DNA from: Saccharicrinis aurantiacus
Lineage (GTDB): Bacteria > Bacteroidota > Bacteroidia > Bacteroidales > Marinilabiliaceae
Direction: 5' to 3'
Length of the DNA stretch: 64,000 bases
NCBI RefSeq assembly: GCF_001660705.2
Contig: NZ_LYBV02000009.1
Location: 62,001 to 126,000, forward strand
Part shown: positions 26,552 to 32,966 of the stretch, in pieces
How the letters are laid out: each line of letters begins with the position of its first letter
Numbering within the stretch: position 1 is the stretch's first letter
Made by a program: the position numbers and the translations under genes
Notes under the pieces: model-generated
Told to the model about the DNA's origin: nothing
The model's input: the letters and a program-made list of their open reading frames with translations, nothing else
Databases searched by the model: none

Positions 26552-26715
26552 GAAGTTGTTTAAGGTTGTAGGGGAATTGCGAGAGTGACAATTTGATTAT
26601 CAGTGGCAAAGCTCCATTTTTTATTGCATAGCCGTAGCTACGGAATAAAAATTAGCTGAAGCCAATTAAATCAAGGTGTTACTCGCAGATTTTCGATACA
26701 ACTTTAAACAACTTC
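26552..26715. repeat. Long imperfect palindrome (MITE-like element or large structured RNA)
   Basis: The left end GAAGTTGTTTAAGGTTGTA and the right end TACAACTTTAAACAACTTC are inverted copies. Pairing continues inward (TTGCGAGAGTGAC with GTTACTCGCAG; TGGCAAAGCTCC with the AGCTGAAGCCA side) to a perfect 12-bp centre CCGTAGCTACGG (26632-26643). The whole ~164 bases can fold on itself. It contains no open frame. Size and terminal inverted repeats suit a miniature inverted-repeat element, but no clear target-site duplication is visible. Confidence 0.65.
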
Positions 26716-26719
26716 AAAT

Positions 26720-26898
26720 AAAAAAAGGGATTTCAACCGTTGTTGAATCCCTTTCTTTTAACCTAAACCCTAATCTATGAAAAAAAACTTCTTATGTCTT
26801 ACTTTGAGGTGAGTTTTAAAGAGGGAATGTTTTAGAAACATTCCCATCTTATAACCTAAACCCTAACCTAATCTATGAAAAACTCTCTTGCTCTTCGG
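26720..26898 (-). ncRNA. Sigma-54-dependent small RNA, copy 1 (proposed)
   Basis: Predicted transcript of about 179 nt on the minus strand. It starts about 12 bases past the -12 GC of the promoter at 26910-26924 and ends in the T-run at 26720-26726, directly after the hairpin 26727-26751 (GGGATTCAAC stem with one bulge). In RNA order: short leader, segment A (UUUUUCAUAGAUUAGG + UUAGGGUUUAGGUU), hairpin 1 (26823-26845, 10-bp stem, 3-base loop), linker, segment A' (UUUUUCAUAGAUUAGGG + UUUAGGUU), then the terminator hairpin. It is therefore a tandem duplication of 'single strand + hairpin'. Copies at 29916 and 32027 are nearly identical. The plus-strand frames that begin with ATG differ in length and frame between copies, which argues against a coding role. 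Confidence 0.75.
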
Positions 26899-26909
26899 TA
26901 TGGAATATT

Positions 26910-26924
26910 GCAAAGTGTGTGCCA
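26910..26924 (-). promoter_or_regulatory. Sigma-54 promoter of small RNA copy 1
   Basis: Read on the minus strand: TTGGCAC-ACACT-TTGCA. This matches the -24/-12 consensus TGGCAC-N5-TTGCA exactly in sequence and spacing. Sigma-54 promoters need an NtrC-type activator; no obvious enhancer palindrome is seen nearby. Confidence 0.8.
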
Positions 26925-27088
26925 AAAAAGCATATGGTAATTTGTTTAACCTTTATTAATGAAACTAGTTTTTATTGAAGGGGAAAGTTTGAAATAGTTA
27001 ATTGAAAAAAACTTAGTTATCCTTGTATCTTTTATGGCTCCTTTCAGTTATGAGAGTAATATAAAGTAGCTCACTTAAAAACTATTAA

Positions 27089-27571
27089 ATGAAAAATATA
27101 ATAATTGTCCTTTTAATATTAAGTCCGTTTCTGCTTCATGCTCAGGATAAATCAAAAACCCTCACTCTTAAAGTTAGGAAACCTATAGTAGAAGAGGATA
27201 TTATAATTGAGTTTGATGTGCAACCATCTGATGATAGACCAGTTTTTTTTGTAGTTGAAGAAATGCCCAAATTTCCTGGTGGAGATGAGGCATTGCGTAA
27301 GTATATTTCAGATAATATAACAGTGCCCTCTGATATACCTGAAAGTGAAAGCATGGGCACAGTGTATGTTCAATTTATAATAAGTAAATCAGGTAAAGTA
27401 GAGAGGGTTAGGCTAGGGAGAGGGGTGAACAATATATTAGATAAAATAGCTATGGATATAGTTAGTAATATGCCCAAGTGGGAACCTGGTAGGCAAAGAG
27501 GAAAGGCTGTTGAGGTGAGCTATACTGTGCCAGTTAATTTCTTAGGAAACCAAACAAAGAGCACTGAGTAA
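27089..27571 (+). CDS. Exported protein with TonB C-terminal domain
   Basis: 160 residues. A signal peptide (MKNIIIVLLILSPFLLHAQ) is followed by a short linker and a TonB-C domain at about 60-155: 'MPKFPGGDEALRKYISDNI..P', 'GTVYVQFIISKSGKVERVRL' and 'MPKWEPGRQRGKAVEVSYTVPVNF'. This domain normally contacts the TonB box of outer-membrane receptors. The protein lacks the TonB membrane anchor and Pro-rich spacer, so it is a periplasmic TonB-C protein of the sort often seen in Bacteroidota rather than an energy transducer itself. Confidence 0.82.
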   Translation: MKNIIIVLLILSPFLLHAQDKSKTLTLKVRKPIVEEDIIIEFDVQPSDDRPVFFVVEEMPKFPGGDEALRKYISDNITVPSDIPESESMGTVYVQFIISKSGKVERVRLGRGVNNILDKIAMDIVSNMPKWEPGRQRGKAVEVSYTVPVNFLGNQTKSTE

Positions 27572-27655
27572 TTTGAAAATATACACAATTAACTTGTTGT
27601 GTAATTGTTTGTGACTAAATCCTTACCAGCTATTATCATTAAACCTAAATAGTAA

Positions 27656-28225
27656 ATGACCATATCACAAATTCATCATAAGTCGCCTAAAACAATTGAC
27701 CAAGAGTATCAATTAGTAAAGGCAGCTCAAAACGATACCGCAAAGTTTGAGGTATTATACGATAGGTATTACGAGGCCATATTCCGATTTGTTTATCAGA
27801 GATTAGATTCAAAAGAGTTGGCTTTTGATATTACGCAGCAAGTTTTTGTAAAAGCACTGCAGGGCATCAAAAAATACAAATTCAAAGGAGTTCCTTTCTC
27901 GGCATGGTTATATCGTATTGCAAGTAACGAACTCAATACTTCTTTTAAACAAAACAAACTAATCAGAACCATAAATATCGAATCTGTTACCCCGCATACT
28001 CTAAAAGAAGATATTGATGAGGAGAGCTTGGATGATTTGTGGAATATATTGATAGAACAAATTGGCACTTTGGCAGCAAGTGAAATTACATTAATAGAAA
28101 TGCGCTATATGGAGAATAGACCATTTAAAGAGATTGCCGATATACTTGATATTACCGAGAATAATGCCAAGGTTAAGGTTTATCGGATTTTAGATAAACT
28201 AAAAGCTAAATGTAAAACTCTTTAA
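27656..28225 (+). CDS. ECF-type RNA polymerase sigma factor
   Basis: 189 residues. Region 2 at about 30-95 (YDRYYEAIFRFVYQRL...AFDITQQVFVKAL, 'FSAWLYRIASNEL') and region 4 at about 130-185 ('ITLIEMRYMENRPFKEIADILDITENNAKVKVYRILDKLK'). The next gene starts 10 bases later and codes for a protein with one membrane helix, the usual layout of an ECF sigma factor and its anti-sigma factor. Confidence 0.88.
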   Translation: MTISQIHHKSPKTIDQEYQLVKAAQNDTAKFEVLYDRYYEAIFRFVYQRLDSKELAFDITQQVFVKALQGIKKYKFKGVPFSAWLYRIASNELNTSFKQNKLIRTINIESVTPHTLKEDIDEESLDDLWNILIEQIGTLAASEITLIEMRYMENRPFKEIADILDITENNAKVKVYRILDKLKAKCKTL

Positions 28226-28235
28226 GCTGCCAATT

Positions 28236-29885
28236 ATGAATAAGTATAAAATTAACATTGATAGAGATATTATTAGTTCTGAGAGTATTGCCCAAGAACG
28301 CAATTTTGCCGCAGTACAAACAGAGGCTCGTATAAAAGATCCGCTTTACACAAAAACTAAAATATTTTTAAATAGTGTGGCTATACTGATTACAGTAGCC
28401 GTTGTGGGTTATTTATTGTACAGTCCAACAAACCAAGATATTGATGATGTAACATCATTTATTGTACCTCCTATAAATGATATCAACATTTCTTTTCAGG
28501 AGTTTCAGCTTGAGGCTTGTATAGCCGATACCATTATTAGTGAGCGAGGTAGTAGAGTAATAATCCCCGCTAATGCCTTTGCAGATACAACTAATCAAAT
28601 AGCTAAGGGAGCGATAATATTTAAAGTGCGTGAGTTTCATAATCAGGCCGATATATTTTTATCAGGTATTCCAATGGGATACGATTCTTTAGCCAATAAC
28701 TATACATTAGAATCAGCTGGTATGATTGAACTACGTGCATTTCAGAATGGAAAGGAATTGCAGCTAGTTCCCGAAAAGGAGCTTGAAGTTGAATTGGTAT
28801 CCGACTATAGCGATAATGATTACAATGTTTATTATTTAGATGAGAATCTTGAAAACTGGCAGTATGTAGGTAAAGATTCTTTAATACTTCCCAATAAAAC
28901 ACTTCCTGTCGATGAACCTCTAGAGGTAGCAATAAATAACAAGGATATTTTAGAACTTCAAAGAAGATTAGATTCTATTATAACAAATAATCAACAGTTT
29001 AGATTAACAGAACCAATCAAACCACAAAAGGCTTTGGCCGATAAATGGAAAATTGAATTAGATGTAATTGCCGAAGATTTCCCTGAACTATCTGTTTACG
29101 AAGGTACTAATTGGCAATTTGCCGATGATGCGCTAGTTCCGGATATTCAGGATGCAGATATTACTTGGGATGATATTATTATTAGCAAAGCAGGAGGGAG
29201 CAATAATTATTTACTTACTGTAAAAAAAGGAAGTAAAGAAAAGCAATATACAGTAAATCCTGTCTATACAGGAATTGCGTATGCAGATGCAATCAACAAT
29301 TACGAAAACAAGTTTAATACTTATAAAGCGGCTCGTGCAAGCAGAAGGCAAGAAGAAGCGAACCTGTTAGCCGCAATTGAGGCTGATAAAGAAAAGTGGC
29401 GCTTAAGTCAACAAAGAGCAATGAGCTTGCGCACAAATATAAATAACAATAAAGGAAAACTCGACCGTGATATTTTTAGGCGCTTCTCGGTAAGTACATT
29501 AGGAGTATGGAATTGTGATAGAATTATTAACACTAATAGGGTAAAAACTGTAAATGCTTTGTGTGCAGATAAAAATGGGGACGCAATGGTTTTTAAAAGC
29601 TTATATGTAATAAATAAGAATAGAAATACAGTACTGCAGTCTACTTCCCAAGTTAGTATTGATGATGTATTGTATTATAGAGTTATGCTTAATAAATTGG
29701 GTGGTGATATTATTATTGGTATTAACATTGAAGATAAAATAATAGTATTGTCTGAAAGGGAATTAAACTATGCAGTTAAAAGCGCTAAAGAGGAAGTTGT
29801 TTTCAACTTTAGTGTAATTGATAAAGAGGTTTCCTCAAAAATGGATTTTAAAAAGCTATATGAAAATAGTTTTAATGCGAATTAG
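28236..29885 (+). CDS. Single-pass membrane protein next to ECF sigma factor (possible anti-sigma factor)
   Basis: 549 residues. A ~45-residue cytoplasmic N-terminus, one transmembrane helix at about 46-64 (IFLNSVAILITVAVVGYLLY) and a large periplasmic part. The periplasmic part has a beta-rich section (about 80-220, 'SRVIIPANAF', 'IIFKVREFHNQADIFLSGIP') and a charged helical stretch (about 360-405, 'ARASRRQEEANLLAAIEADK'). I recognise no named domain. Being 10 bases behind the sigma gene and the topology suggest it inhibits that sigma factor and senses something outside; this is inference. It has no zinc-binding HxxxCxxC motif. Confidence 0.5.
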   Translation: MNKYKINIDRDIISSESIAQERNFAAVQTEARIKDPLYTKTKIFLNSVAILITVAVVGYLLYSPTNQDIDDVTSFIVPPINDINISFQEFQLEACIADTIISERGSRVIIPANAFADTTNQIAKGAIIFKVREFHNQADIFLSGIPMGYDSLANNYTLESAGMIELRAFQNGKELQLVPEKELEVELVSDYSDNDYNVYYLDENLENWQYVGKDSLILPNKTLPVDEPLEVAINNKDILELQRRLDSIITNNQQFRLTEPIKPQKALADKWKIELDVIAEDFPELSVYEGTNWQFADDALVPDIQDADITWDDIIISKAGGSNNYLLTVKKGSKEKQYTVNPVYTGIAYADAINNYENKFNTYKAARASRRQEEANLLAAIEADKEKWRLSQQRAMSLRTNINNNKGKLDRDIFRRFSVSTLGVWNCDRIINTNRVKTVNALCADKNGDAMVFKSLYVINKNRNTVLQSTSQVSIDDVLYYRVMLNKLGGDIIIGINIEDKIIVLSERELNYAVKSAKEEVVFNFSVIDKEVSSKMDFKKLYENSFNAN

Positions 29886-29915
29886 GAAATACTTTATAGC
29901 TTAGGAGTGAATCAT

Positions 29916-30093
29916 AAAAAAAGGGATTTCAACCGTTGTTGAATCCCTTTCTTTTAACCTAAACCCTAATCTATGAAAAAAAACATCTTATGTCTCATTT
30001 GAGGTGAGTTTTAAAGAGGGAATGTTTTAGAAACATTCCCATCTTATAACCTAAACCCTAACCTAATCTATGAAAAACTCTCTTGCTCTTCGG
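29916..30093 (-). ncRNA. Sigma-54-dependent small RNA, copy 2 (proposed)
   Basis: About 178 nt on the minus strand, with the same parts as copy 1: promoter at 30105-30119, segment A, hairpin 1, linker, segment A' and terminator hairpin 29923-29947 followed by seven U. It differs from copy 1 only at a few positions, mainly in the linker and close to the start point; both hairpins and both antisense segments are unchanged. Homology between copies begins at the -24 element and ends at the T-run, i.e. it covers one transcription unit. Confidence 0.75.
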
Positions 30094-30104
30094 TGAGGAA
30101 TATT

Positions 30105-30119
30105 GCAAAGTGTGTGCCA
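30105..30119 (-). promoter_or_regulatory. Sigma-54 promoter of small RNA copy 2
   Basis: Minus strand: TTGGCAC-ACACT-TTGCA, identical to copy 1 and a full match to the -24/-12 consensus. Confidence 0.8.
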
Positions 30120-30287
30120 AATTTTTCAATAATTGAAAAAATTTATCTTAAACCAACTTTTTTTCTAAAAATTAATGTGGCGCATAATAAAGTATCAGTC
30201 AATTGTTAAAAACAGATCGTGTGTAATGCTTGCCTGTAGGTTAAAATAGTTAATTCCGTTATTAGTTATATTGTGTACTTAGATTAA

Positions 30288-30295
30288 TATATTTG
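30288..30295 (+). promoter_or_regulatory. Possible -7 element for the gene at 30339
   Basis: TATATTTG matches TAnnTTTG 44 bases before the start codon. No convincing -33 element is seen at the right distance. Confidence 0.4.
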
Positions 30296-30338
30296 CGCAA
30301 AATTATAGAAGCAATTTTAACTAACACATTAAACTACA

Positions 30339-31913
30339 ATGCGTAAATTACTATTAATTGTATTTGTATTACTAACGCAATTACAACTTGAAGCAAAAAA
30401 AACAGAGAACCGACTTTTACTGAATACACCGAGCGATAGTCTTGTTTTTATGTTTTATATGAATGCCTCAGAAATACAATCCGACTCATTATATCAGGCC
30501 TTTAGTAAAGAGATTGGAGAAGAACAGCAAAAGCTGCTTGAGCAGTTTAGCGAATTAAATATCTATGCACAGATGTACGAGGCTCACATGGCTCTTACAG
30601 TAAACTTTAAAGCATCTAAGGAATTTGATTTAGAGTTCATGAAATCTAGCTTATCCGATCTGGATTTATCAATAACAGGCATGCAAGGTAACTTTATCAC
30701 ACTTCAAGGAGATGGGGAAAACAAGCGATATGCTTATTTATATACAGGAAATCAATATGCTACCTTAAAGATCTTCACACCATATTCTTATATCAGTCAA
30801 GATATAAGAACTCAAGTAACTGAACTCTATGGTTTACTAGATAAGCCTAACATGGATTATGAAGATAGAAATGTTATTTATGATAAGATAGATTCATTAA
30901 AAGTGTTGGATGATGCATATGTTGAACCATTCTTCACCGCTTTGATTCAATCCGATAAAACGCGTTTATCCAATGGTGAAGATATACAATCGGTGAAGCG
31001 ACCAATAAAGTTTAAACAAGAGATTCAAAATAATCCAATTGTTTCTTATGTGAAGAATGATGAAATATGGAGAATTACTTATTTCGGTGGAATAGCTTTG
31101 GCTGGTAAAGATATGTTTGGAAGTTTTTCATCAAATTATGATGATTTTAAAAGGGCAATGGCCATCTATAATATATTTGATGAAACATGGTATACTGCTA
31201 AGTCAACAAATGATGGGGTAGAGCTAGCACAAATTTCTGGCAATAAAAATCGTAAGCAAAATTTATATACAAATATTGATAGTAAGATGTTACAATATAT
31301 TCCGTCTTCAGATTCAGCTAATCTGGCAACCTATAGTATAGATGCTTTAAATCTGAGAGAGATTTTGTACGATTATTATGTAACTGATTATGACAAAGAA
31401 TTAAAATTGGGCAAATTAGCAATGCTGGCATTAGATGATGACGTAGTTAAAATGTTAAATAACTTTTTAATATCGGGAAATTTTGTAAAGACTAGTTATT
31501 ACGGAAAAGAACTACATTTTAAGGCAGTGTTAAAAATGCCAAATCAGCAAAAAGGGAGGCGCCTATTAGATCTTTTATGTAAAGAATTTGAAATATTGCA
31601 AAAACTAGAGGAGGATACCTATGTTTTCGTAGAACAAAGTCTTACAGAAAAACCTCTTTATTTAGTTATTGATAACGAATATTGGATTGCAGGAACTCAT
31701 TCTGCAGATGAGCTAAAGCAAAAGAATAAGAATTATAAAACTAGTTTTCCTGATTTGTTAAATAAAAAACTTTCAAGCTATATTTTGCTTAGGCAAGATA
31801 TCCTAGGTGTTAAAGAGGGAATTGATAACGTGAAAATACAATTAGAGCTAGTGGATAGTAAAACAGTGAAAACAACTTATAAACTCAAATTTAGCGATCA
31901 ATTAAGTAATTAA
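30339..31913 (+). CDS. Exported protein of unknown function
   Basis: 524 residues with a signal peptide (MRKLLLIVFVLLTQLQLEA). The rest is soluble and mixed alpha/beta with phrases such as 'DSLVFMFYMNASEIQSDSLYQAF', 'LANLATYSIDALNLREILYDYY' and 'PLYLVIDNEYWIAGTHSADELK'. The layout recalls the large DUF4836-like exported proteins of Bacteroidota, but I cannot confirm a family. It stands alone between small RNA copies 2 and 3. Confidence 0.5.
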   Translation: MRKLLLIVFVLLTQLQLEAKKTENRLLLNTPSDSLVFMFYMNASEIQSDSLYQAFSKEIGEEQQKLLEQFSELNIYAQMYEAHMALTVNFKASKEFDLEFMKSSLSDLDLSITGMQGNFITLQGDGENKRYAYLYTGNQYATLKIFTPYSYISQDIRTQVTELYGLLDKPNMDYEDRNVIYDKIDSLKVLDDAYVEPFFTALIQSDKTRLSNGEDIQSVKRPIKFKQEIQNNPIVSYVKNDEIWRITYFGGIALAGKDMFGSFSSNYDDFKRAMAIYNIFDETWYTAKSTNDGVELAQISGNKNRKQNLYTNIDSKMLQYIPSSDSANLATYSIDALNLREILYDYYVTDYDKELKLGKLAMLALDDDVVKMLNNFLISGNFVKTSYYGKELHFKAVLKMPNQQKGRRLLDLLCKEFEILQKLEEDTYVFVEQSLTEKPLYLVIDNEYWIAGTHSADELKQKNKNYKTSFPDLLNKKLSSYILLRQDILGVKEGIDNVKIQLELVDSKTVKTTYKLKFSDQLSN

Positions 31914-32026
31914 CCATCTTGGTTGTAATCAAAATTAATTATTTCTCAGAAGACTTATTTTTATACTCAGGTATGGATGTAAGTCTTCTTTGTTTTAGAT
32001 TAAAATAGAATCACATTTTTAAGCAT

Positions 32027-32206
32027 AAAAAAAGGGATTTCAACCGTTGTTGAATCCCTTTCTTTTAACCTAAACCCTAATCTATGAAAAAAAACTTCTT
32101 ATATCTTATTTGAGGTGAGCTTTTAAAAGAGGGAATGTTTTAGAAACATTCCCATCTTATAACCTAAACCCTAACCTAATCTATGAAAAACTCTCTTGCT
32201 CTTCGA
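32027..32206 (-). ncRNA. Sigma-54-dependent small RNA, copy 3 (proposed)
   Basis: About 180 nt on the minus strand with the same parts as copies 1 and 2; terminator hairpin 32034-32058 and a T-run at 32027-32033. Changes lie in the linker between hairpin 1 and segment A' and just past the promoter. No plus-strand gene follows this copy (the next gene, ung, points the other way), so the alternative view of the repeats as plus-strand leaders of downstream genes does not work here. Confidence 0.75.
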
Positions 32207-32217
32207 TGAGGAATATT

Positions 32218-32232
32218 GCAAAGTGTATGCCA
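32218..32232 (-). promoter_or_regulatory. Sigma-54 promoter of small RNA copy 3
   Basis: Minus strand: TTGGCAT-ACACT-TTGCA; one change from the other two copies (C to T in the last base of TGGCAC), with the GG and GC pairs and the spacing kept. Confidence 0.72.
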
Positions 32233-32267
32233 AGAATATTATTATATATTAGCTTAACTTTTATTAA

Positions 32268-32966
32268 CTAAAACAAAGTTTTTTGTACTTGGGGTAAATC
32301 CCAGATAATAGGCGCGTAACCTTTACTTTGCAAGTAATTATTAGTTTTGCTAAAGTGTTTATTACCAAAAAAACCCCGATGCGCTGAGAGAGGAGAAGGA
32401 TGAGGTGATTCTAAAATAGAATGCTTATTGGTATCGATAAGACTTACTTTTTTACGCGCATATGCACCCCAGAGTATAAAAACAATGTTTTCTTTTTCCT
32501 TAGCAAGCTTTTCTATTACTGCATCAGTAAATGTTTCCCAGCCTTGTTTTTGGTGCGAACCCGCTTTGTGGGCCTCTACCGTTAAAGTAGCGTTGAGTAA
32601 AAGTACCCCTTGTTTGGCCCACTGCTCAAGGTTTCCATTTTCAGGCATTCTAAAATCTACCTCTTCATCGCTATCTAATTCTTTAAAGATATTTCGCAAC
32701 GATGGCGGGAATTTAATACCATTATTCACCGAAAAGCAAAGACCGTGTGCTTGGTTTACATCATGGTAAGGGTCTTGGCCTAAAATGACCACTTTGGTTT
32801 TATCAAGCGGACAAAGATTAAATGCTTCGAATATTAATTCGCGTGGGGGGAATATCTCTGTTGTTTGATAAGCATCATTCACAAATGAATTTAATTGTTT
32901 AAAATAATCGGTTTCAAGTTCACTTTGTAATAGCTTCTTCCAGCCTGATTCTATATTAATATCCAT
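32268..32966 (-). CDS. ung: Uracil-DNA glycosylase, family 1
   Basis: 232 residues. Water-activating loop GQDPYHD, 'AHGLCFSV', 'GVLLLNATLTVE' with 'AGSHQKQGWETFTD', and the DNA-intercalation loop HPSPLSAHRGFFG are all intact. It removes uracil from DNA as the first step of base excision repair. A -7 type element (TATATTTG on the minus strand, 33004-33011) lies about 38 bases upstream. The stop codon is about 35 bases from the sigma-54 promoter of small RNA copy 3. Confidence 0.97.
   Translation of the reverse strand: MDINIESGWKKLLQSELETDYFKQLNSFVNDAYQTTEIFPPRELIFEAFNLCPLDKTKVVILGQDPYHDVNQAHGLCFSVNNGIKFPPSLRNIFKELDSDEEVDFRMPENGNLEQWAKQGVLLLNATLTVEAHKAGSHQKQGWETFTDAVIEKLAKEKENIVFILWGAYARKKVSLIDTNKHSILESPHPSPLSAHRGFFGNKHFSKTNNYLQSKGYAPIIWDLPQVQKTLF

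Follow-up and report, generated by a model that had tools for sequence, protein, structure and literature searches.

Three near-identical blocks lie on the minus strand of the window, the 64,000-nucleotide stretch of the Saccharicrinis aurantiacus genome that we analyzed. Their positions, 26720-26924, 29916-30119 and 32027-32232, agree with the original prediction, as do the -24/-12 promoters that it placed at all three copies (TGGCACACACTTTGC twice, TGGCATACACTTTGC once). Within each unit the order of parts is seed A, hairpin 1, seed B and terminator, and the predicted product is a two-seed, two-hairpin small RNA (sRNA) of 178-180 nt. The features are as follows.

26720..26898, minus strand: sRNA copy 1, predicted transcript of about 179 nt
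26910..26924, minus strand: copy 1 -24/-12 promoter, TGGCACACACTTTGC
26946..26960, minus strand: copy 1 upstream direct repeat, ATTAA-N5-GTTAA
26852..26882, minus strand: copy 1 seed A (UUUUUCAUAGAUUAGGUUAGGGUUUAGGUUA)
26823..26845, minus strand: copy 1 hairpin 1, covarying stem
26759..26787, minus strand: copy 1 seed B (UUUUUUUUCAUAGAUUAGGGUUUAGGUUA)
26720..26754, minus strand: copy 1 intrinsic terminator
29916..30093, minus strand: sRNA copy 2, predicted transcript of 178 nt
30105..30119, minus strand: copy 2 -24/-12 promoter, TGGCACACACTTTGC, without a clear upstream direct repeat
30047..30077, minus strand: copy 2 seed A (FopS model, 24.3 bits for the seed A half)
30018..30040, minus strand: copy 2 hairpin 1
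29955..29983, minus strand: copy 2 seed B (FopS model, 31.1 bits for the seed B half)
29916..29950, minus strand: copy 2 intrinsic terminator
32027..32206, minus strand: sRNA copy 3, predicted transcript of 180 nt
32218..32232, minus strand: copy 3 -24/-12 promoter, TGGCATACACTTTGC
32254..32268, minus strand: copy 3 upstream direct repeat, GTTAA-N5-GTTAA
32160..32190, minus strand: copy 3 seed A
32131..32153, minus strand: copy 3 hairpin 1
32066..32094, minus strand: copy 3 seed B
32027..32061, minus strand: copy 3 intrinsic terminator

Compared with the reference copy without gaps, the other two copies are 98% and 90% identical over a 124-nt half and 83% and 94% identical over a 109-nt half. 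When the three are aligned with gaps, homology extends from TTGGCA to directly past the T-run and the flanks are unalignable, which bears out the claim that the repeated segment is a promoter-to-terminator unit. Both hairpins had been said to be kept, and compensatory changes are indeed seen in them.

Copies across the genome

What had been described as a three-copy family proved to be larger: at least 11 copies were counted in the genome, including the three in the window. Their hairpins covary, and the two long stretches in between, the seeds, are almost invariant. We scored covariation on 10 of the 11 copies, omitting C24 (L052) because its terminator stem differs. In this sample 94.8% of cells in the hairpins are paired, and five hairpin pairs are changed on both sides, a count equalled in 8 of 500 shuffles; the covariation score was equalled in none of 500. 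Twenty-three two-seed units were listed altogether, and a MAFFT alignment of 19 of them misaligns the variable hairpins.

Folding of single sequences predicts near-complete pairing between the U-run of seed A and the 5' end in all 11 copies (unpaired probability at most 0.02); for the remainder of seed A, and for seed B, the unpaired probability is about 0.4-0.7. An initial assumption that both seeds are unpaired thus finds no backing in this folding, in which their accessibility is limited. We abandoned the idea that the exact leader TAAACCCTAATCTATG stands on many genes: all 11 exact matches in the genome are the sRNA copies themselves. Allowing one mismatch gave two matches, both of them ordinary gene starts.

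Relation to FopS, GibS and Qrr

When copy 2 was compared permissively with 4227 Rfam families, the top two were FopS (31.1 bits) and GibS (28.0 bits). Both invariant stretches align with the FopS/GibS seed, and seed B together with the terminator aligns end to end with the FopS model, which has its R1' seed ahead of an intrinsic terminator. These scores lie below the gathering cut-offs, which are 56 bits for FopS (RF04319; 31.1 for the seed B half and 24.3 for the seed A half) and 115 bits for GibS (RF04182); at gathering score the window yields only four tRNAs, and the link to FopS is visible just in the permissive search. The original prediction knew of no counterpart in Bacteroidota, but what stays invariant here is a FopS/GibS-type seed present twice, and for this reason we take FopS of Bacteroides thetaiotaomicron (PMC11697453) as the functional model.

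In Bacteroides, the RNAs FopS and GibS act on SusC mRNAs, silencing them at the start codon (PMC11697453 for FopS). FopS was reported in 2025 to exert translational control over polysaccharide utilisation loci in Bacteroides; it is transcribed from housekeeping promoters, has 12-15 copies per genome in the Bacteroides species named, and has the RRM-1 protein RbpB as its partner there (PMC11697453). The window copies resemble it in the seed, UUUUUCAU-G-AUUAG plus GGUUAA followed by a terminator, in complementarity around the susC start codon, and in having many paralogues, here at least 11 sigma-54-type units and one TAnnTTTG unit (exact pattern). They differ in architecture and promoter. FopS has about 65-70 nt and one seed, whereas the window copies have two seeds, two hairpins and a far greater predicted length; and the FopS promoter is of the sigma-ABfr type (TAnnTTTG), whereas those in the window are of the sigma-54 type. 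The FopS seed occupies an unpaired 5' stretch; for the window copies folding gives a mixed picture, with the U-run of seed A predicted to be paired and the remainder of both seeds partly open. As for RbpB, no RRM_1 (RbpB-type) protein was found in the window's genome by a search in which Bacteroides ihuae was positive.

GibS (RF04182, PMC7366714) is similar in its R1-type seed, longer RNA and internal hairpin, but has another second seed (R2) and the promoter motif PM2, with elements at -10 and -30, which we compared by description only. Single-seed sigma-ABfr units of the FopS-like kind occur in the same bacterial family and have the seed core TTTTTCATAGATT in common with the window copies; they differ in their TAnnTTTG housekeeping promoter, and there are one to three exact-pattern matches per genome where they are present. 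This arrangement is probably the older one.

Vibrio Qrr comprises several similar sRNA genes, each with a sigma-54 promoter, and its Hfq/LuxO circuit is a Vibrio feature. The likeness to Qrr (RF00378) that had been proposed stands for the promoter logic, that is, for multiple copies with sigma-54 promoters, here at the level of promoter sequence. It does not extend to function, for which FopS is the model: Qrr has another seed and other targets, and at gathering score its covariance model finds nothing in the window.

Complementarity to SusC start regions

Complementarity to the seed is enriched in SusC start regions in two genomes, and this is partly a composition effect. In the window's own genome, seed pairing of start regions reached -16.05 kcal/mol for 39 SusC genes versus -12.65 kcal/mol for 366 others (p=3.4e-8). 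The corresponding values in a second genome (g12, from the genus of Carboxylicivirga linearis) were -17.72 kcal/mol for 40 SusC genes and -14.07 kcal/mol for 152 others (p=7.1e-6). None of 60 shuffled seeds equalled the difference in either genome. The reversed seed still separates SusC from other genes in g12 (p=8.9e-5), and taking just the G-rich half of the seed gives no separation in either genome (p=0.23 and 0.31).

Many non-SusC genes pair equally well, and SusC genes are a minority among the 25 best-ranked predicted targets, in a list for which SusC and other start codons were chosen by different rules (the two-genome comparison used a single rule). In the window's own genome, signal-peptide-like genes outside the SusC group also show a slight pairing advantage over the remaining genes (p=0.013; in g12 they are not separated, p=0.15), and seed A is partly folded away. 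These observations would fit sigma-54 sRNAs whose main target is something other than SusC, be it the mRNAs of other exported proteins, one or two special mRNAs, or a protein to be titrated. We consider this unlikely: SusC genes pair more strongly than other signal-peptide-like genes, both in the window's own genome (p=6.1e-7) and in g12 (p=6.1e-5), and the related FopS seed has SusC targets that were tested in Bacteroides thetaiotaomicron (PMC11697453).

Promoters and upstream repeat

Ten of the copies in the genome carry TGGCA[C/T]N5TTG, and one has AGGCACN5TTG at the equivalent position. In 730 kb of this genome, partly selected around sRNA copies, seven of the eight exact TGGCAYN5TTGC sites are promoters of the sRNA family, so the promoter match is not due to chance. 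The genome also contains rpoN and seven strong matches to sigma-54 activator domains; the -24/-12 element, RpoN and activators are thus all found together. Further upstream, a GTTAA-type direct repeat accompanies 32 of 67 non-redundant promoters versus 1 of 67 in the adjacent 75 nt beyond, and it occurs in 96 of 20,000 random windows. A clear repeat is missing from roughly half of the promoters, that of copy 2 included.

Could the -24/-12 match be fortuitous, with the housekeeping sigma factor driving the units as it does for Bacteroides FopS? The -12 TTTGC is similar to the TTTG that ends the TAnnTTTG box, and the genome does hold one FopS-like unit with a housekeeping promoter (TAnnTTTG in its exact pattern, TACATTTG). 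The -24 TGGCA, however, recurs at fixed spacing in 10 of the 11 copies and in other genera, and the TTG precedes the U-run of the seed by at least 14 nt in the 65 sigma-54-type units measured, whereas the box of genuine TAnnTTTG units lies a few nt upstream of the seed. We therefore regard transcription by the housekeeping factor as very improbable, and sigma-54 as the better candidate. Thirty FopS loci of the order were inspected as well, these being the top-scoring matches, one per genome, not preselected by TAnnTTTG; all 30 have TAnnTTTG and none has a promoter of the -24/-12 type.

Distribution

A scan of the bacterial family for promoter plus seed produced 79 matches in 31 of 71 genomes, against five for the reversed pattern. 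The match in G358 is a probable chance hit, with no U-run ahead of CATAAATT, so that 30 of the 71 genomes, in 6 of 21 genera, are likely to be real carriers. Scanning GTDB gave 71 matches in 62 stretches. Six of them (L171, L174, L178, L191, L202 and L210) are without the rest of the seed and were treated as chance; the remaining 65 fall in records named Bacteroidales or lower groups, the exception being two stretches from one MAG labelled Chlorobiota. Six of these 65 failed a crude hairpin-plus-T-run test. Carboxylicivirga and other Bacteroidales have single-seed units behind promoters of the sigma-54 type, and such single-seed relatives are short, the seed being followed by the terminator as in FopS.

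The presence of 11 similar copies across the genome, three of them inside 5.5 kb, might suggest a dispersed repeat or a small mobile element with no regulatory role. This is highly improbable, given that the repeated segment is exactly one transcription unit, that its stems covary with the seeds fixed, and that other genera have the same design with different hairpins; moreover, copy 2 has no match in the plasmid collection, and the three pattern matches among virus contigs are all without the rest of the seed.

Each window copy also keeps two plus-strand ATGs followed by lysine codons; conservation of these ATGs follows from that of the antisense CAU. The likelihood that the blocks act as attenuators or encode leader peptides on the plus strand (ATGAAAAA frames preceded by CCTAAACCC) is negligible: the short frames end at different points in the three copies, the neighboring genes differ from copy to copy, and the unit is delimited by a minus-strand promoter and terminator. 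The earlier statement that frames are not conserved was right in substance.

Discussion

The gene anatomy, the covariation, the conservation of promoter and upstream site, the distribution, the presence of rpoN and activators, the alignment with the FopS seed and the enriched complementarity to susC start regions in two genomes are all read from sequence; expression, dependence on sigma-54, repression and a controlling signal are inferred. The units are probably FopS-like repressors of glycan importers under sigma-54. The three blocks would be members of a set of at least 11 paralogous genes, each specifying a trans-acting sRNA on the FopS/GibS plan, in which a conserved seed (UUUUUCAUAGAUUAGGGUUUAGGUUA or near) is the putative antisense of a Bacteroidota start-codon region and stands ahead of an intrinsic terminator. 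With an active enhancer-binding protein, sigma-54 RNA polymerase would transcribe the unit; that protein, or a helper, may bind the GTTAA-type direct repeat, which lies at about -62 to -48. The RNA would then pair with the 5' ends of susC-type mRNAs, which encode outer-membrane glycan importers, and block their translation. The doubling of the seed may have arisen by decay of the terminator between tandem units.

We would give about even chances to a broader reading. In it, the Marinilabiliaceae have placed an entire multicopy sRNA regulon for silencing glycan importers under sigma-54 instead of the housekeeping sigma factor; the switch would seem to be complete in the Carboxylicivirga genus and partial in that of the window, and importer shut-off would come to depend on a signal. 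Tandem units would have fused to a two-seed RNA in the window's genus, and a regulator that recognizes GTTAA may act both on the sigma-54 forms and on housekeeping-promoter FopS genes elsewhere in the order. If true, the FopS control layer would be widespread in the order, free-living relatives included, and could be rewired to an on/off signal with the seed retained; it would also provide a Bacteroidota example of the Qrr-like logic of multicopy sigma-54 sRNAs.

Units are carried by records of Labilibacter sediminis CG51, Labilibacter marinus Y11 and Carboxylicivirga mesophila JCM 18290. The window's genome itself belongs to the Marinilabiliaceae, and its genus includes Labilibacter.

Anatomy and number of the sRNA units

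Three units, each read from the minus strand, lie in the window:

26720..26898, minus strand, copy 1
29916..30093, minus strand, copy 2
32027..32206, minus strand, copy 3

As the original prediction held, the repeated blocks are near-identical and run from promoter to terminator: homology begins at TTGGCA and ends right after the terminator T-run, and the flanking DNA cannot be aligned. Each unit comprises, in order, a sigma-54-type -24/-12 promoter, the predicted 5' end, seed A (UUUUUCAUAGAUUAGGUUAGGGUUUAGGUUA), hairpin 1, a linker, seed B (UUUUUUUUCAUAGAUUAGGGUUUAGGUUA) and an intrinsic terminator. With the 5' end placed about 12 nt beyond TTGC from the usual spacing, the predicted RNA is 178-180 nt long. 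Copy 2 folds at -46.5 kcal/mol, against -34.3 +/- 3.6 in 200 shuffles (z = -3.4). An imperfect inverted repeat (26552-26715; 47-nt arms, 77% complementary, 70-nt gap) abuts the copy 1 terminator. Between copies 1 and 3 (27656-31913) lie a gene for a sigma-70-family sigma factor and, after it, two genes whose products (549 and 524 aa) have no Pfam match.

The family had been taken to have three copies; it is larger. A similarity search of 100 genomes matched 36 and gave eight places in the genome that includes the window (G000, 5.88 Mb), a lower bound, as the search there was limited to eight scored candidates and all eight were family members. G000 contains 11 exact instances of the 16-mer TAAACCCTAATCTATG; three of these places, previously uncounted, proved to be additional sRNA copies, so the genome has at least 11. 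Ten of these carry TGGCA[C/T]N5TTG at the equivalent position; the eleventh, on contig C1, has AGGCACN5TTG, and is adjoined by a Flavo-1 RNA (RF01705, 50.6 bits, cut-off 42; L051:5195-5336). Within 730 kb of G000, seven of the eight exact TGGCAYN5TTGC sites are promoters of the family. The remaining site, G000:C30:63555, precedes a SusC match by about 280 bp, and this importer gene is possibly sigma-54-driven.

G000 encodes RpoN (181.7 bits). It has 14 matches to the sigma-54 activator domain above the family cut-off, but because this family matches all 14 control genomes, we counted just the seven strong ones (176-250 bits).

Stems are kept by pairing and seeds by sequence

We counted covariation on 10 of the 11 G000 copies. 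Standard pairs fill 94.8% of cells in the two hairpins (shuffle mean 90.3%) and the covariation score is 0.177 (shuffle mean 0.081); neither value was reached by any of 500 shuffles. Five pairs, four of them in hairpin 1, have changed on both sides, a number reached by 8/500 shuffles. Further pair types were no more numerous than in shuffles, 214/500 of which reached the count. Seed B and nearly the whole of seed A are invariant across the same copies, and long invariant stretches of both persist in 19 two-seed units of the window's genus. Stems kept by pairing and seeds kept by sequence are the pattern of a base-pairing RNA.

Single-RNA folding of all 11 copies predicts nearly complete pairing of the seed A U-run with the 5' end, where a conserved GAAGAGCAAGAGAG precedes the seed; the remainder of seed A, like seed B, is just ~0.4-0.7 unpaired on average. 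These folds suggest that seed B may be the more accessible seed, or that a protein assists. Terminator loops CAACGG or AACG are common to many sigma-54-type sRNAs despite different stems (L004-L025, L155-L216).

Relation to FopS and GibS

The units had been thought to lack a counterpart in Bacteroidota. This does not hold: among 4227 Rfam families, the best two for copy 2 are the Bacteroides sRNAs FopS (RF04319, 31.1 bits) and GibS (RF04182, 28.0 bits), below their curated cut-offs of 56 and 115 bits. Seed A of copy 2 again retrieved FopS (24.3 bits, likewise under the cut-off), and the FopS alignment places GUUUUUUUUCAUAG-AUUAGGGUUUAGGUUAA opposite GUGUUUUUCAUgGUAUUAGAUUUAAGGUUAA. According to PMC11697453, B. 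thetaiotaomicron FopS has 14 paralogues that pair at the start codon via the seed and repress susC translation; their promoters are sigma-ABfr, bile salts raise their levels and RbpB counteracts them. The window units differ from FopS in score, length and promoter, and the FopS model is without the 5' hairpin that GAAGAGCAAGAGAG and the seed A U-run are predicted to form. The GibS promoter, motif 2, is described in PMC7366714 as having elements at -10 and -30; a link between it and the window-type promoters is conceivable.

No RRM_1 protein, the type to which RbpB belongs, was found in G000, whereas the Bacteroides ihuae control matched; G000 therefore seems either to lack the RbpB arm of the circuit or to use a substitute for it.

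Promoter type across the order and family

In 295 genomes of the order, the FopS model (E 0.01) matched 80, of which 55 were above the cut-off; G000 was unmatched under the stricter filters of that search. Among the best-scoring FopS matches, one per genome, the housekeeping box TAnnTTTG lies directly ahead of the seed in 30/30 loci, and TGGCAYN5TTG occurs within 60 nt in 0/30. In the window's family, a -24/-12 promoter with seed core was found in 31/71 genomes (79 matches vs 5 with the reversed pattern); the match in G358 looks like chance. The housekeeping form, TANNTTTG with TTTTTCATAGATT, was found in 36/71, and its reversed pattern nowhere.

Genomes with each form (exact patterns, so that an absence is not proof)
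Genus; sigma-54 form; housekeeping form
g12 (genus of Carboxylicivirga linearis); 14/14; 0/14
g10 (another genus); 4/4; 0/4
Window's genus; 8/9; 9/9

The ninth genome of the window's genus, G002, has a near match to the sigma-54 form (L006). About 4 kb separate one sigma-54-type copy of G000 from a single-seed FopS-like unit (G000:C33:32512-32544, in L033) whose promoter, TACATTTG, is of the housekeeping type.

When 84,980 named genomes were scanned, a set that possibly leaves out the G000 records, 71 matches in 62 stretches came up. The remainder of the seed is present in 65, and 59 of these also have, by a crude test, a hairpin and T-run. The records of the 65 are titled Carboxylicivirga, Labilibacter, Saccharicrinis, Marinilabiliaceae or Bacteroidales; the exception is a single MAG with the label Chlorobiota, which contributes two stretches. 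Six matches without the seed (Bacillus, Caenarcanales, Pelagibacteraceae, Brocadiia, Electronema, Flavobacterium) were rejected.

By regular expression, 58 of the 65 are single-seed, as is at least one of the other seven (L212); the doubled RNA was found just in the window's genus. In L047 and L048 the distance to seed B is greater than usual, with the seed further downstream. That of L047 has its own TAGATTTG box, which makes this unit a possible intermediate and would fit an origin of the doubled RNA in a tandem arrangement through weakening of the inner terminator.

The likeness of the seeds to those of FopS and GibS could reflect convergence on the same targets, but the family's TAnnTTTG single-seed units, intermediate in form, would favour common descent. 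We conclude that the window-type units are a real family of trans-acting FopS-like sRNA genes, of an ordinary kind, with an unusual promoter and a doubled seed. FopS loci with housekeeping promoters and FopS-like units with -24/-12 promoters form a clear evolutionary contrast. Among titles and abstract openings, from a literature in which most subscription journals were lacking, we recognised no report of an sRNA of FopS type driven by sigma-54 and none of a Bacteroidota sRNA family with several sigma-54-dependent copies; a flavobacterial transcriptome describes a sigma-54 regulon and sRNAs, with no link between them in the text available (PMC9723704).

Predicted targets

Using one start-codon rule, we calculated duplex energies between positions -45..+25 of genes and seed B (G000, 730 kb) or the matching seed of a g12 genome (G046, surroundings of 40 of its 46 above-cut-off SusC matches). 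SusC genes paired better in both: mean -16.05 for 39 SusC vs -12.65 for 366 other genes in G000 (p = 3.4e-8), and -17.72 for 40 vs -14.07 for 152 in G046 (p = 7.1e-6). They also exceeded other signal-peptide-like genes (p = 6.1e-7 and 6.1e-5, respectively) and, among ATGAAA starts alone, other ATGAAA genes (2.5e-4 and 1.1e-4). In each genome the difference was reached by 0/60 shuffled seeds and by 0/60 seeds with the 3' half alone shuffled. The predicted duplex covers the start codon in 36/39 and 35/40 SusC genes, and in 267/366 and 122/152 others.

Against this, the reversed seed, which did not separate SusC in G000 (p = 0.34), did so in G046, with a smaller difference (p = 8.9e-5); the G-rich half by itself did not separate SusC in either (p = 0.23 and 0.31), and many other genes pair equally well. 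The predictions thus support a preference of the seed for SusC start regions that is not exclusive. The family probably works like FopS.

An upstream GTTAA-type site

GTTAA or TTAAC starts exactly at -36 from TGG in 11, and at -26 in 10, of 19 seed-A-type promoters (one, L027, a single-seed unit); among 48 other non-redundant promoters, starts fall at -32 in 15 and at -31 in 9, GTTAAC being scored at both positions. The 75 nt ahead of the promoter contain a strict direct-repeat pair in 32/67 cases (9/19 seed-A-type, 23/48 others), compared with 1/67 for the next 75 nt and 96/20,000 random windows. Within the window, GTTAA-N5-GTTAA precedes copy 3 and the looser ATTAA-N5-GTTAA precedes copy 1, while copy 2 is preceded by neither. 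GTTAA/TTAAC also stands at the matching distance in 17/32 FopS genes of the order, as against 5/106 comparison TAnnTTTG sites in those loci, which hints at one regulator common to them and the sigma-54-type units. Many housekeeping FopS promoters also have a ATGTTGTATAACATA-like palindrome, placed between their GTTAA site and -7 box (upstream regions of L056-L085).
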